Below, piece after piece: positions 44,372 through 58,780 of a stretch of DNA of 64,000 bases. Position numbers and translations under genes: made by a program. The notes below the pieces were generated by a model, which saw only the letters and a list, made by a program, of their open reading frames with translations, had not been told where the DNA came from and did no database searches. Where the stretch lies: assembly GCA_030148025.1 (NCBI GenBank), contig JASBUG010000043.1:1-64000 (forward strand), read 5' to 3'. Each line of letters starts with the position of its first letter. Position 1 is the stretch's first letter. Origin of the DNA: Flavobacteriaceae bacterium. GTDB lineage: Bacteria > Bacteroidota > Bacteroidia > Flavobacteriales > Flavobacteriaceae.

Positions 44372-45457
44372 TTAATCTGCTTTAAAGATTTTTTCTTGAT
44401 GGTTAATTGATTCCTGGTGAATCGCTTTAAACATTCTAAGAACAAATTCCTCACTTAAATTATTTTGTTCTCCTTCTAAAATCATTTTGCCTAAAATTTC
44501 ATTCCAGCGTTTAGACTGAAGTACTGCAACATTATTTGCTTTTTTAAGTTTCCCTATACTGTCTGACACCTTCATACGCTTACCTAAAACCTCTATTAAC
44601 TGATGATCGATCACATCAATTTGGGTACGTAACGTATTTATTTTATTATTAAACTCTGCCGCAGCCGAAGTCTCTTTTCTAATCTTTAAATCTTCCATAT
44701 ACTGAACAAGGTCAGAAGGTAAAATTTGCTGCTTTGCATCACTCCATGCATTATCTGGGTCATGATGAGTTTCAACCATCAATCCATCAAAATTAAGATC
44801 TAATGCCGTTTGACATAGATCGAAAATAATATCACGTCTGCCTGCAATATGAGAAGGATCCAAAATTAGTGGTAAATCTGGAAATCTATTTTGAAGATCG
44901 ATTGGTAATTGCCATTCTGGATTGTTACGATATCTAGTTTTTTCGTAAGTAGAAAACCCTCTATGAATTACTCCAAGGTTTTTAACATCAGCTTTATAGA
45001 AACGCTCCACAGCACCTAACCACAATGCTAGATCTGGGTTTACTGGATTCTTAATTAAAACAGGTTTATCTGTTCCTTTTAAAGCTTCAGCAATTTCTTG
45101 TACAATAAACGGACTTACTGTACTTCTAGCGCCTATCCACAACACATCGATATCGTGCTCTAAAGCTAGATCGACGTGGTTAGCATTGGCAACTTCTGTA
45201 GAAATTAACATTCCTGTTTCTTCCTTTGCTTTTTGAAGCCATTTTAACCCTAAAGCACCAACACCTTCAAAATTTCCTGGTCTGGTTCTAGGTTTCCAAA
45301 TACCTGCACGTAGAACGGTTGCGTCAGTATCTTTTAATTGATGCGCAATATTTAAAACCTGATCTTCAGTTTCTGCGCTGCATGGTCCAGCAATTACTAA
45401 CGGATGTTCTAATCCGAAATTATCTAACCATGTTCTAAGTTCTTTTTTGTTTTCCAT
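44372..45457 (-). CDS. Bifunctional DAHP synthase / chorismate mutase (type II)
   Basis: A 361-residue fusion. Residues about 10-260 are a DAHP synthase of the KDO8P-synthase-like type Ibeta: VIAGPCSAET, RAGIWKPRTRPGNFEG, LIKNPVN and LILDPSHIAGRRD, which make the first committed compound of the shikimate pathway. Residues about 270-361 are an AroQ-type chorismate mutase (LRTQIDVIDHQLIEVLGKRM) that makes prephenate. The CM part may also act as a feedback sensor. It is the last gene of the aromatic operon, ten bases after tyrA, and is under the attenuator at 48290-48421. Confidence 0.95.
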   Translation of the reverse strand: MENKKELRTWLDNFGLEHPLVIAGPCSAETEDQVLNIAHQLKDTDATVLRAGIWKPRTRPGNFEGVGALGLKWLQKAKEETGMLISTEVANANHVDLALEHDIDVLWIGARSTVSPFIVQEIAEALKGTDKPVLIKNPVNPDLALWLGAVERFYKADVKNLGVIHRGFSTYEKTRYRNNPEWQLPIDLQNRFPDLPLILDPSHIAGRRDIIFDLCQTALDLNFDGLMVETHHDPDNAWSDAKQQILPSDLVQYMEDLKIRKETSAAAEFNNKINTLRTQIDVIDHQLIEVLGKRMKVSDSIGKLKKANNVAVLQSKRWNEILGKMILEGEQNNLSEEFVLRMFKAIHQESINHQEKIFKAD

Positions 45458-45467
45458 AGCATTTACT

Positions 45468-46319
45468 TTAAGCTATTCCTTTTAATATTTGTTTTATATA
45501 ATTAGTGTCTTTCATTTCCTGATTTATAGATTCAAAATCTTGTTTTTCCATTAGTTCTTTAAAATGGGTAAGATTTTGTATATACTCCTCAAGAGTTTTT
45601 ATAACGTTTGTTTTGTTTTGTTCAAAAATTGGTGTCCACATTTCTGGTGAACTTTTAGCCAATCGTACTGTTGACTCAAAACCACTTCCTGCCATATCAA
45701 AAATATCGCGCTCATTCTTTTCTTGTTCTATTACTGTTTTTCCCAGCATAAACGAACTGATATGCGATAAATGCGACATATAGGCAATGTGTTTGTCGTG
45801 TGACTTTGGTTTCATATAACGAATACGCATCCCAATATCTGTAAACATTTTTAATGCTTTCTCTTGAAGTTTAAATGTGGTTTCTTCTACCTCGCAAATG
45901 ATATTGGTTTTTCCATTAAACAAACCATAAATTGCAGCAGTTGGACCAGAAAATTCGGTTCCGGCAATTGGATGTGTCGCTAGAAAATTTCTGCGTTTAG
46001 GATGCTCTTCAACAGCTAAACATATATCTTCTTTTGTTGAACCAACATCTATCACTAAAGCATCATCAGATACTAAATCTAAAATTGTCGGCAATAGTTT
46101 TACCGTTGCATCAACAGGTATTGATACAATTACTAAATCTGCTTCTTTTATATCTTCTAGTGTGGCTTTTTTGTCTATAACATTTTCAGCTAAGGCTAAA
46201 TCTAAATGCTCATCGCTTTTATCAACACCATAAATAGTCACAGAGTTATCTAACTTTTTAATATCTAAAGCTAAACTTCCACCTATTAGCCCTACACCTA
46301 TTACATATATCTTTTTCAT
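45468..46319 (-). CDS. tyrA: Prephenate dehydrogenase
   Basis: NAD(P)-dependent oxidative decarboxylation of prephenate to 4-hydroxyphenylpyruvate on the way to Tyr. At 283 residues it contains the dehydrogenase core only, with no ACT domain. The Rossmann motif is GVGLIGGSLALDIK at residues 7-20. The active-site segments ATHPIAGTEFSG and HDKHIAYMSHLSH follow, then AGSGFESTVRLAKSSPEMW. It overlaps the aminotransferase gene by four bases. Confidence 0.95.
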   Translation of the reverse strand: MKKIYVIGVGLIGGSLALDIKKLDNSVTIYGVDKSDEHLDLALAENVIDKKATLEDIKEADLVIVSIPVDATVKLLPTILDLVSDDALVIDVGSTKEDICLAVEEHPKRRNFLATHPIAGTEFSGPTAAIYGLFNGKTNIICEVEETTFKLQEKALKMFTDIGMRIRYMKPKSHDKHIAYMSHLSHISSFMLGKTVIEQEKNERDIFDMAGSGFESTVRLAKSSPEMWTPIFEQNKTNVIKTLEEYIQNLTHFKELMEKQDFESINQEMKDTNYIKQILKGIA

Positions 46320-47461
46320 AATACTCTTTGTATTGCTTCTTCTATATCTTCATTTGAAGCACATAAAGAAAATCTTATATAACCTTCACCTTTACTACCA
46401 AAAATGGTTCCTGGTGTTATAAACACGTGATTGTTTTTAAGTACCACATCTATAAATTCTTCGGCTTTTGTAAATGGTGGTAATTTTGCCCATACAAACA
46501 ACCCTGATGTATTTTTATCGTATGTACAGTTTAAAGCATCGGCTAACTTCCAAATAAGTTCACGACGTCTTTCGTAAACACTATTTAAACTTAAATACCA
46601 AAGCTTAGAACATCTTAAAGCTTCAATTGCTCCTTTCTGTATACCATAGAACATTCCAGAATCCATATTACTTTTTACCTTCAAAATATTAGCAATATGC
46701 TCGCCATCACCAAGTACCATTCCTACACGCCAACCAGCCATATTAAAGGTTTTACTCAGAGAATTTAATTCTAAGCAAACATCTTTTGCTCCAGTTACTT
46801 TTAGAATACTCTTAGGTGCATCGTTAAGTATAAAGCTATACGGATTATCATTAACAATTAGTATTTTATTACGTCGTGCAAAATCAACTAACTCCTGATA
46901 CATTTTATATGTAGCCTGAGCTCCAGTAGGCATGTGCGGATAGCTAATCCACATCAGTTTTACTTTGGTTAGATCTTGCTTTTCTAACGCAGTTATATTT
47001 GGCATCCAATTATTCGATTCATCCAATTCATAAAAAATTGGTTTTGCTCCTAATAATCTTGTAACCGATTGATATGTTGGATAACCAGGATTAGGTATAA
47101 GCACTTCATCGTCTTCATTTAAGTAAGTCATTGAGATATGCATAATGCCTTCCTTACTACCAATTAATGGCAGAATCTCGGTCATAGGACTTAAATGCAC
47201 TTGAAACTGTTCTCTATAGAATTCAGCCATCGCTTCTCTAAGCTCAGGAAGCCCTTGATAACTTTGATATTTATGAGCTGAGGCGTCTTCCATACCCTCG
47301 ATCATAGCGCTCACTACTTTTTGTGGAGGCTGCAAATCTGGACTTCCAATTCCAAGATTAATTATAGGTTTTCCCGCTGCTTTTAGTAAGTTAACTTCTC
47401 GCAGTTTTTTAGAAAAATAGTATTCTTCAACTGTATGTAACCTGTTAGCTACTTCAATCAT
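46316..47461 (-). CDS. PLP-dependent class I aminotransferase of the aromatic operon
   Basis: A 381-residue fold-type I aminotransferase. The PLP lysine lies in LNSLSKTFNMAGWRVGM, and NLGIGSPDLQPP, NPGYPTYQS and VNDNPYSF are family segments. Its location between pheA and tyrA, with four-base overlaps on both sides, implies that it makes Phe and Tyr from phenylpyruvate and hydroxyphenylpyruvate, or transaminates prephenate to arogenate. Which of these it does cannot be told from sequence. Confidence 0.92.
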   Translation of the reverse strand: MIEVANRLHTVEEYYFSKKLREVNLLKAAGKPIINLGIGSPDLQPPQKVVSAMIEGMEDASAHKYQSYQGLPELREAMAEFYREQFQVHLSPMTEILPLIGSKEGIMHISMTYLNEDDEVLIPNPGYPTYQSVTRLLGAKPIFYELDESNNWMPNITALEKQDLTKVKLMWISYPHMPTGAQATYKMYQELVDFARRNKILIVNDNPYSFILNDAPKSILKVTGAKDVCLELNSLSKTFNMAGWRVGMVLGDGEHIANILKVKSNMDSGMFYGIQKGAIEALRCSKLWYLSLNSVYERRRELIWKLADALNCTYDKNTSGLFVWAKLPPFTKAEEFIDVVLKNNHVFITPGTIFGSKGEGYIRFSLCASNEDIEEAIQRVL

Positions 47462-48285
47462 AACTTTGCATTTATATATTCGCCCAATACCTTAAAGTCT
47501 TCTGCCATAATATTTATGATAGATTTTGCTTTCACATAATCTTCGTAAGTGTCGAAAGTCACATCAACAAAAAATGCATACTTCCAAGGTGTTTCAATTT
47601 TAGGTAAGGACTGAATTTTAGTTAAGTTCAATTTACAATCACTCATTACATTAAGTATAGTCGCTAAACTTCCACGTTTATGATCTAATTCAAATTTTAG
47701 TGATGCCTTATTTATTTTATTCTCTGGAATTTCAGAGTTGGTTCGTTTTACAATTACAAATCGCGTTTCATTGTGCTTAATGGTTTGAATGCTTTTTGCC
47801 AGTATCTCAACTTCAAATATCTGGGCAGCCATTTCGCTAGCAATCGCACCAATATTACTCAACTGTTGTTCATGAATTCGCTGTGCAACCTCTGCTGTAT
47901 CTCTGTCTTCTACTAATTTAATATGAGGATATTTTTTAAAGAACTCCTTACATTGTAATAATGCCATAGGATGCGAATACACCTCTTGAATGTCTTCTAT
48001 ACTTTGCCCTGGCAATACCATTAGGTTATGCTGAATATCTAAATACTTTTCACCAACAATGTGCAAATGGTGATTATCTATTAAAGCATAATTAGGTATG
48101 ATCGATCCAGCAATTGAGTTTTCTATCGCCATAATTGCAGCATCACATTCGGTACTAGTTAAAGCATTTACTACAGCGTCAAAAGTCAGGCATTCCTTTA
48201 TATGAACACCATTATCGAAATATTGCTGAGAAACAATATGATGATTTGATCCTTTAACACCCTGTATTGCAACTGATTTAATCAT
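47458..48285 (-). CDS. pheA: Prephenate dehydratase
   Basis: Converts prephenate to phenylpyruvate, the Phe branch. The start is the ATG at 48285 (MIKSVAIQGVKG), giving 275 residues; a longer frame exists but reads through the terminator hairpin. The catalytic domain ends with the conserved HNETRFVIVKR (T-R-F motif). An ACT domain at about 195-275 (SLKFELDHKRGSLATILNVM) contains the Phe-binding region, so feedback inhibition is likely as well as attenuation. It is the first structural gene after the aromatic leader peptide and is separated from the terminator U-run by only four bases. Confidence 0.95.
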   Translation of the reverse strand: MIKSVAIQGVKGSNHHIVSQQYFDNGVHIKECLTFDAVVNALTSTECDAAIMAIENSIAGSIIPNYALIDNHHLHIVGEKYLDIQHNLMVLPGQSIEDIQEVYSHPMALLQCKEFFKKYPHIKLVEDRDTAEVAQRIHEQQLSNIGAIASEMAAQIFEVEILAKSIQTIKHNETRFVIVKRTNSEIPENKINKASLKFELDHKRGSLATILNVMSDCKLNLTKIQSLPKIETPWKYAFFVDVTFDTYEDYVKAKSIINIMAEDFKVLGEYINAKL

Positions 48286-48289
48286 AAGC

Positions 48290-48320
48290 AAAAAAAAAGT
48301 CTCGATTTTCATCGAGACTT
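48290..48320 (-). terminator. Attenuator terminator of the aromatic amino-acid operon
   Basis: On the minus strand AAGTCTCGAT (48320-48311), loop GAAA and ATCGAGACTT form a perfect 10-bp stem leading into nine consecutive T (48298-48290). It ends five bases before the pheA ATG at 48285, so any RNA stopping here contains only the leader peptide. Its 5' arm core GTCTCG can instead pair with CGAGAC in the leader ORF at 48362-48357. Confidence 0.93.
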
Positions 48321-48343
48321 ACATTTAAATTTATATCTATAAA

Positions 48344-48421
48344 TTACACATATAACGTCTCGTTCCTTTTGCTAAAAAAGAAATAAAACCAGTTATAATA
48401 TGTAAAGTTGTTTGTGTTCAT
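48344..48421 (-). CDS. Aromatic leader peptide of the pheA operon (attenuation control)
   Basis: A 25-codon ORF (ATG 48421-48419, TAA 48346-48344) upstream of pheA. Residues 6-16 read FTYYNWFYFFF: nine of eleven are aromatic (five Phe, three Tyr, one Trp). Including Y24, ten of the 25 residues are aromatic. The AT-rich base content favours TTT and TAT, but TGG and TTC in the same run make chance unlikely. Ribosome stalling here when charged aromatic tRNAs are scarce would leave the last codons (N20-E21-T22, bases CGAGAC) free to pair with the terminator's 5' arm. Completing translation to the TAA would mask them and allow termination. It is too short for normal gene callers. Confidence is high as a leader, from pattern alone. 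Confidence 0.9.
   Translation of the reverse strand: MNTNNFTYYNWFYFFFSKRNETLYV
48357..48362 (-). promoter_or_regulatory. Antiterminator segment inside the leader ORF
   Basis: The minus strand reads CGAGAC within codons 20-22 of the leader peptide. It is exactly complementary to GTCTCG in the terminator's 5' arm (48318-48313). Between them AATTTAT and ATAAATT form a 7-bp AT hairpin that would bring the partners together. The pairing core is only six bases, so stability should be computed. Confidence 0.65.
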
Positions 48422-48437
48422 TGTTTTAATGATGAGG

Positions 48438-48467
48438 CTAAAGTAATTAATATTTTCACAAATCAAA
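48438..48467 (-). promoter_or_regulatory. Candidate promoter of the aromatic operon
   Basis: On the minus strand TTTG (48467-48464) and, after 18 bases, TACTTTAG (48445-48438) resemble the Bacteroidota TTTG / TAnnTTTG pair with one mismatch in the minus-7 box. The start point would fall about ten bases before the leader ATG. Confidence 0.5.
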
Positions 48468-58553: not shown

Positions 58554-58608
58554 TTATGATAAATTATATATCAATATGTCATCAGGAAAGTAAGAGGAAT
58601 TGCTCTTG

Positions 58609-58710
58609 GTTATCTGTCTGTTTTTATTACAGTAGAATTTAGCACCTTCTTTAAAGTTAAAGGGTTGCTAAGGCTTCACAGGGTCTATTCCCTCTGCCTT
58701 TCGTGATAAC
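58609..58710 (-). ncRNA. SAM-I (S-box) riboswitch controlling the split metH-metF operon
   Basis: The minus strand shows the SAM-I aptamer in full. The P1 helix is GTTATC (58710-58705) with GATAAC (58614-58609). After P1 come CGAAAGGCAGAGGGAATAGA, CCCTGTGAAGCC, then the conserved AGCAACC, AAGGTGCTAAATTCTAC, and a short P4 helix (CTGT/ACAG). Spacing and order match the family as I know it. It lies 55 bases before the MetH N-half ATG. The expression platform is unclear; a small AAGAG/CTCTT hairpin follows, without a U-run, so translational control is possible. The remainder of the spacer (58711-58780) shows no clear promoter. Confidence 0.92.
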
Positions 58711-58780
58711 TATCAATAATATTAATGAACGGCACAAAGTAACGTAATTAATTTTTAATTATCACATAGTTTTTTAGTTT

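Follow-up and report, generated by a model that had tools for sequence, protein, structure and literature searches.

The four-gene operon pheA–aminotransferase–tyrA–DAHP synthase in the DNA analyzed here, a 64,000-nt stretch from Flavobacteriaceae bacterium (the window), is very probably controlled by a ribosome-mediated transcription attenuator, a conclusion that follows from an aromatic leader peptide, an intrinsic terminator, covariation of an alternative pairing, the spacing of codons and pairing arm, and recoding of the sensor codons with gene content, all read from the sequences compared. The genes lie on the minus strand: pheA, prephenate dehydratase (47458..48285); an aminotransferase like LL-diaminopimelate aminotransferase (46316..47461); tyrA, prephenate dehydrogenase (45468..46319); and a DAHP synthase–chorismate mutase fusion (DAHPS; 44372..45457). 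The tyrA assignment is an NCBIfam match over the cut-off, and the other three are best NCBIfam matches below it. The assembly of the window's genome (88% complete) yielded no second DAHP synthase and no PF01474 match; of its two PF00793 matches, one among the matches listed is KdsA and the other is taken to be the operon's own fusion.

The leader ORF comprises 25 codons, MNTNNFTYYNWFYFFFSKRNETLYV followed by a stop (48421-48344, minus strand), and sequence and translation confirm the stretch FTYYNWFYFFF that an earlier note on this DNA had placed at residues 6–16 (the sensor codons, 48374..48406). The antiterminator arm CGAGAC, leader nucleotides 60–65 (48362-48357), lies 14 nt past the start (first base) of the last aromatic codon, and the complementary GTCTCG is present as claimed at 48318-48313, where, as judged from sequence and covariation, it is common to the antiterminator and the 5′ arm of the terminator. 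The intrinsic terminator, AAGTCTCGAT-GAAA-ATCGAGACTT, has a 10-bp stem and a GAAA loop (48320-48297, or to 48290 with the U-run) and starts 23 nt past the leader stop codon; the U-run spans 48298-48290, and the ATG of pheA is at 48285. The hairpin is perfect, as had been stated, but the stem already takes two of the nine U, so that seven follow it rather than nine. Both the minimum-free-energy and the centroid fold predict a leader (1:2) hairpin (48344..48405, minus strand), in which GUUUU of the Trp-Phe-Tyr codons would pair with GAGAC of the arm.

Upstream of the leader, a putative promoter assigned by sequence resemblance (48438..48467, minus strand) consists of TTTG (48467-48464), an 18-nt spacer, and TACTTTAG (48445-48438); the TTTG element is presumably Bacteroidota promoter-like. 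The best −7-box score is at least 5 in 122/124 of the family leaders described below and also in 88/124 shuffled leaders, which makes the support for the putative box weak. The consensus given for such promoters is TAnnTTTG (PMC9723704). None of the 124 leaders has a Shine-Dalgarno-like motif within 20 nt.

In the proposed mechanism, RNA polymerase would transcribe the 25-codon leader with a ribosome behind it. With charged Phe-, Tyr-, and Trp-tRNA plentiful, the ribosome would cross the aromatic codons and cover CGAGAC on reaching the stop codon, and with CGAGAC covered, the terminator GTCTCG-ATCGAGAC would form before pheA. With the aromatic tRNAs uncharged, the ribosome would stall in the run and leave CGAGAC free for GTCTCG; this pairing would block the terminator, and the operon would be transcribed. 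The comparative predictions of ribosome-mediated attenuation (the run, the terminator, covariation, and drifting spacers) support the interpretation offered in the earlier note, and we infer regulation in vivo, with transcription and translation of the leader in Flavobacteriaceae bacterium, ribosome stalling, and read-through upon starvation.

Among 149 genomes of the family, one per genus, pheA was found in 130, and all 130 upstream regions were fetched and oriented. An aromatic leader and a terminator stand in order before pheA in 124 of the 130 (raw count), with a gap between stop codon and terminator of 20–53 nt (median 24). Absence of the leader ORF from relatives, which the earlier note had named as grounds for abandoning the proposal, is thus not what was found, and the family alignment agrees with its expectation that the aromatic run and the terminator be conserved while the spacers drift. 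At one of the remaining loci a contig end cuts the element, the remainder being present (L017), and at another the leader is displaced to ~510 nt upstream of pheA (L022); four of the 130 (L080, L098, L109, and L120) show no leader of this type over the 330 nt that precede pheA, the contig of L109 having given 382 nt. At L022/L258 (G013), the ~510 nt that separate the leader terminator from pheA look repeat-like by eye.

The arrangement is also carried by 77/80 named genomes, a set that partly overlaps the 130 family genomes and includes Gaetbulibacter, Pontimicrobium, Tamlana, Algibacter, Maribacter, Zobellia, Tenacibaculum, Polaribacter, and Kordia. The three exceptions have only 150 nt upstream (L138), a terminator without a passing ORF (L179), and neither (L152). 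The four genes occur in the same order in 76/80 named genomes, and contig ends truncate the remaining four loci. From a phylum sample with 128 matching genomes, 20 upstream regions were taken (one from the same family, one of two from the same order, all 16 from the same class, and the two best same-phylum rows). Outside the family, an aromatic leader with terminator precedes pheA in 16/19 of these regions (raw count; in one of these the terminator is weak) and is absent before pheA in L211, L212, and L228.

The alternative pairing was examined in an alignment (A1) of the 124 leaders, from which L017, L022, L080, L098, L109, and L120 were left out. Antiterminator arms pair better with their own terminator than with those of others (17.5 vs 14.6; sd 0.21, 2000 permutations, kinship being ignored), and 82.2% of 743 antiterminator cells are paired, compared with at most 55.3% when slid. 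At the central pair 85/154, 66 of the 124 rows have A-U and 52 have G-C; some columns pair poorly, the outermost in 45 of 123. The covariation between CGAGAC and GTCTCG anticipated in the earlier note is seen across the family, with three of five measures exceeding all 500 shuffles and two lying within them (both-side-change pairs, 208/500; further pair types, 157/500). For the terminator, 94.0% of 1232 cells are paired, both-side changes occur at nine of the ten stem pairs, and all five measures are above every shuffle. Tree-corrected covariation used the named-genome tree and 103 of 105 rows: the central pair has two changes, both compensated, and three other positions have one or two compensatory events each and none opposite, with no test significant, the phylogenetically independent events being too few to test on the named genomes.

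A 7-bp A/T hairpin that had been described between the two arms is present in the window (48345-48328, overlapping the stop codon) but was rejected as a conserved part of the element, as it is paired in only 65.9% of 596 cells across the family. What is conserved is the ORF, its arm, and the terminator, with no aptamer. These parts bear on the notion that the leader is a riboswitch, a T-box, or a protein-binding element that senses aromatics directly. The leader RNA of the window is structured (fold z = −4.19), as such an element would be; the set of conserved parts, however, includes no aptamer, and no Rfam family matches at the leader at curated thresholds in the window, including Phe_leader (which we take to be the name of a described Rfam leader family) and T-box, neither of which gives a covariance-model match there at its family threshold. 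We consider direct sensing exceedingly improbable and attenuation by a translating ribosome the better account; Rfam at its thresholds misses this switch. The sole Rfam match at threshold in the window is a SAM riboswitch (RF00162, 83.9 bits) at 58607-58712 on the minus strand.

Measured from the first base of the final aromatic codon, the arm lies 12–15 nt away in 106/124 leaders, close to a ribosome footprint. Stalling was modeled in 121 of the 124 leaders (those with an arm score <12.9 were left out) by making the RNA unavailable for pairing as far as 12 nt beyond the first A-site base. The modeled antiterminator probability has a median of ~0.98 with the ribosome on aromatic codons and is <0.1 at the stop codon in 121/121; for the window the values are 0.993 (codon 16), 0.65 (codon 17), 0.01 (codon 18), and zero (stop). 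In the model, then, a stalled ribosome frees the arm and a terminating ribosome covers it. In 112/119 leaders the last permissive codon either coincides with the last aromatic one or comes one codon later, a fit that depends on the assumed ribosome edge, because an edge of 15 nt leaves the last aromatic codon permissive in 75/121 only. Without a ribosome, the modeled antiterminator probability is 0.51 in the window and has a median of 0.85 over the 121; a strong protecting 1:2 hairpin is therefore no general feature, although the fold of the window shows one. Before other genes, leaders with Trp or Tyr codons do not keep the 12–15-nt spacing.

The run ends in four codons that are aromatic in about 99% or more of the 124 leaders. 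Phe and Tyr codons occur in all 124 and Trp codons in 84, being absent from 40. Comparison of single-base leader differences that involve an aromatic codon within the last eight codons gave 8820 pairs with Phe/Tyr/Trp second-position swaps, 8018 with synonymous third-position changes, and 784 with change to another amino acid; being pair counts, these figures count related rows many times. When both strands of the window were scanned, one ORF of 12–40 residues with at least 8 of 12 residues aromatic came up, the pheA leader, with its terminator and arm; in 60 dinucleotide shuffles of the 64 kb, each on one strand, 11 ORFs of this kind arose, all lacking a terminator. The arrangement is far beyond chance. 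Were the hairpin a plain intrinsic terminator, making a short RNA or insulating the operon, the aromatic ORF would be a by-product of U-rich RNA, and Phe and Tyr codons are indeed U-rich and the region A/T-rich. This explanation is extremely unlikely, as the shuffles yielded no aromatic ORF with terminator, the synonymous third-position changes keep aromatic identity, and the Trp recoding set out next is tied to trpE.

The recoding of sensor codons with gene content is the most informative new part of the analysis. pheA is missing in 19/149 family genomes, and PF00800 is absent in 19/19; no PF02153 (tyrA) match at the cut-off was found in these 19, with weak matches in G079 and G088, whereas both families were detected in 14/14 control genomes. 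An apparent tyrA end sits at a contig break in G062, whose operon may therefore be whole. The DAHPS fusion is present in 16/19 of the pheA-less genomes and has its upstream region in view in 14 (G062 and G115 are cut). With trpE called from matches at E 1e-100 or better (all trpE matches in the family are below the model's curated cut-off), eight of the 14 have a trpE match and six do not. Before DAHPS, seven of the eight trpE-positive genomes carry a short leader that contains Trp codons, together with a terminator (L292-L297 and L304), and no such leader was found within 230 nt before DAHPS in any of the six trpE-less ones (Fisher p 0.005, kinship ignored). The leaders carry WW in G027, G033, G054, G073, G074, and G078 and one W in G100, and WW occurs in 0/124 pheA leaders. 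The eighth trpE-positive genome, G042, has no Trp leader and has an extra DAHP-synthase-family gene ~5 kb from trpE on the same contig.

In these DAHPS leaders the arm sits just past the stop codon, 26–28 nt from the last Trp codon in 6/7 and 35 nt in G033, and the arms are complementary (CGGGATT/AGTCCCG, AGGGATT/AGTCCCT, and TGGGATT/AGTCCCA among them; only 5 bp in G073 and G074). On the best DAHPS tree, of 68 rows chosen from the loci, the Trp-leader group needs at least two changes; a single origin is possible. Judged from sequence and with kinship ignored, the identity of the sensor (Phe/Tyr/Trp, Trp, or none) follows pheA, tyrA, and trpE content. The suggestion in the earlier note that a mix of Phe, Tyr, and Trp codons suits an operon feeding all three pathways agrees with the failure to find a second DAHP synthase in the 88%-complete assembly and with leaders that turn to Trp codons where the Trp branch alone remains; Trp codons are not essential to it, given the 40 leaders that have none. 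Two explanations of those W-less leaders were rejected. For a second DAHP synthase behind them there is little to correlate, since class II (PF01474) is absent in 149/149 and the PF00793 count is nearly constant (two in 132/149, one in 11, three in 6; KdsA identity of the second match was established in the window's genome only). Nor is there a link to trpE loss, as the five trpE-negative genomes with a leader are split, two being without W (L005 and L094) and three with it (L050, L058, and L128).

The same data weigh on whether the leader could be a nascent arrest peptide, TnaC-like, that itself detects free aromatic amino acids and halts the ribosome. Close relatives do have similar leader peptides, but outside the aromatic run the sequence drifts across the family; within it Phe and Tyr interchange, and codon identity tracks the part of the pathway that is left (WW), the pattern that sensing of tRNA charging predicts. 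By reasoning, a peptide that arrests when amino acids are in excess would, moreover, control a biosynthetic operon with the wrong sign. An arrest peptide is very unlikely on these grounds, and sensing through tRNA charging in a ribosome-mediated attenuator is preferred.

The kind of attenuator is already known (pheL and trpL). In enterics, pheL encodes a Phe-rich leader peptide and stands with alternative hairpins and a terminator before pheA, a layout that the flavobacterial element resembles; unlike pheL, the flavobacterial leader combines Phe, Tyr, and mostly Trp codons, precedes four genes, among them the sole DAHP synthase detected, and has neither a Shine-Dalgarno-like motif nor an Rfam match. 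The trp, his, thr, and ilv leaders share the same logic, and thr and ilv leaders mix several amino acids; the flavobacterial run differs from them in that Phe and Tyr are interchangeable and in ending 12–15 nt before the arm in most leaders. Attenuation of pheA is named in PMC1183508.

The earlier note knew of no description of this control in the group, a statement in need of correction: in a 2021 study of Flavobacterium psychrophilum, pheA and hisG are each reported to have a structured 5′ region that is conserved in other genera and has no Rfam match, and the study speaks in general terms of “strong clues” that attenuation by leader peptides operates ahead of amino-acid operons (PMC9723704). 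The F. psychrophilum pheA element belongs to the same gene in the same family, is a transcribed 5′ region, and is likewise conserved in other genera without an Rfam match; in the main-text passages on it, no leader peptide, antiterminator, covariation, or distribution is given (PMC9723704). Flavo-1 RNA, widespread in Flavobacteriaceae according to the same source, is family-wide like the pheA leader but unmatched at the leader at Rfam's threshold. Leader-like small ORFs are reported in Bacteroides thetaiotaomicron (PMC7366714), Bacteroidetes leader genes have been counted in a study whose relevant passages do not name pheA (PMC4833913), and in 2010 the authors of a Firmicutes case stated that they knew of no leader-peptide system shown outside Proteobacteria and Actinobacteria before theirs (PMC2965389). 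Searches of open-licence full texts turned up no account of this anatomy, and relative to that literature the anatomy, the spacing, the spread beyond the family, the recoding, and Tyr-rich leaders before phenylalanine hydroxylase are new as far as the papers show.

Related leaders precede other genes. Among 19 of 25 trpE loci surveyed (among L321-L338), 17 have a WWW leader, including the window genome's own trpE (L329, G000:C19), where a terminator accompanies it; one has WW and one none. In two pheA-less genomes (L263 and L265, also L242) a Tyr-rich leader with a terminator and complementary arm precedes a lone gene of the phenylalanine 4-hydroxylase family (PF00351): MKNLNNTYYYYPILTRRIGQ (L263, G042) and MKTNRIYTIYMYTFYHRWRAR (L265, G088, its hydroxylase gene probably cut by the contig end), with the last Tyr codon 18 nt and 11 nt, respectively, from the arm. 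No Tyr-rich leader occurs at L261, L262, or L264, where a short PF00351 gene and pheA are both present; the count covers the five short PF00351 genes, most of the PF00351 matches listed being aromatic amino acid hydroxylase homologues of ~600 residues. L254 (G053) has an HHHHFH leader and terminator before a gene that looks HisG-like by eye.

With confidence evenly divided, we suggest that Bacteroidota hold an old class of leader-peptide attenuators without Shine-Dalgarno motifs, in which evolution would have preserved the sensor codons, a class-specific spacing (12–15 nt for pheA, 26–28 nt for most Trp/DAHPS leaders), and the complementarity of the arms but let everything else drift. The sensors would be rewritten as need changes: Phe/Tyr/Trp for the whole operon, Trp-Trp for the Trp branch alone, Tyr-rich before a lone phenylalanine hydroxylase without pheA, and none once the need has disappeared. 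In many members, read-through may be what happens by default if the leader is untranslated, the reverse of the enteric trp attenuator. The class would offer a natural experiment on attenuator evolution, with codon identity, spacing, and pairing traceable through the loss of pathway branches. The amino-acid needs of uncultured flavobacteria could be predicted from ~150 bases, and the class raises the question of how attenuation operates in a phylum whose translation mostly begins without Shine-Dalgarno pairing.

A covariance model (R1) built from the pheA leaders was run on the 80 named genomes; its pheA matches are no independent evidence, because it was built from those leaders. Among its listed matches, 18 loci other than pheA leaders were examined; several are only terminators behind genes, and the useful ones are the leaders of DAHPS, trpE, HisG-like, and phenylalanine hydroxylase genes. 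A second strong pheA-leader copy was seen in G048 (G048:C240:8622-8755) and is possibly foreign, since the contamination of that genome is estimated at 6%. At L244, L249, and L259, in three genomes, a terminator and a short ORF lie directly before homologous MFS-transporter-like genes, and these elements are possible further attenuators.
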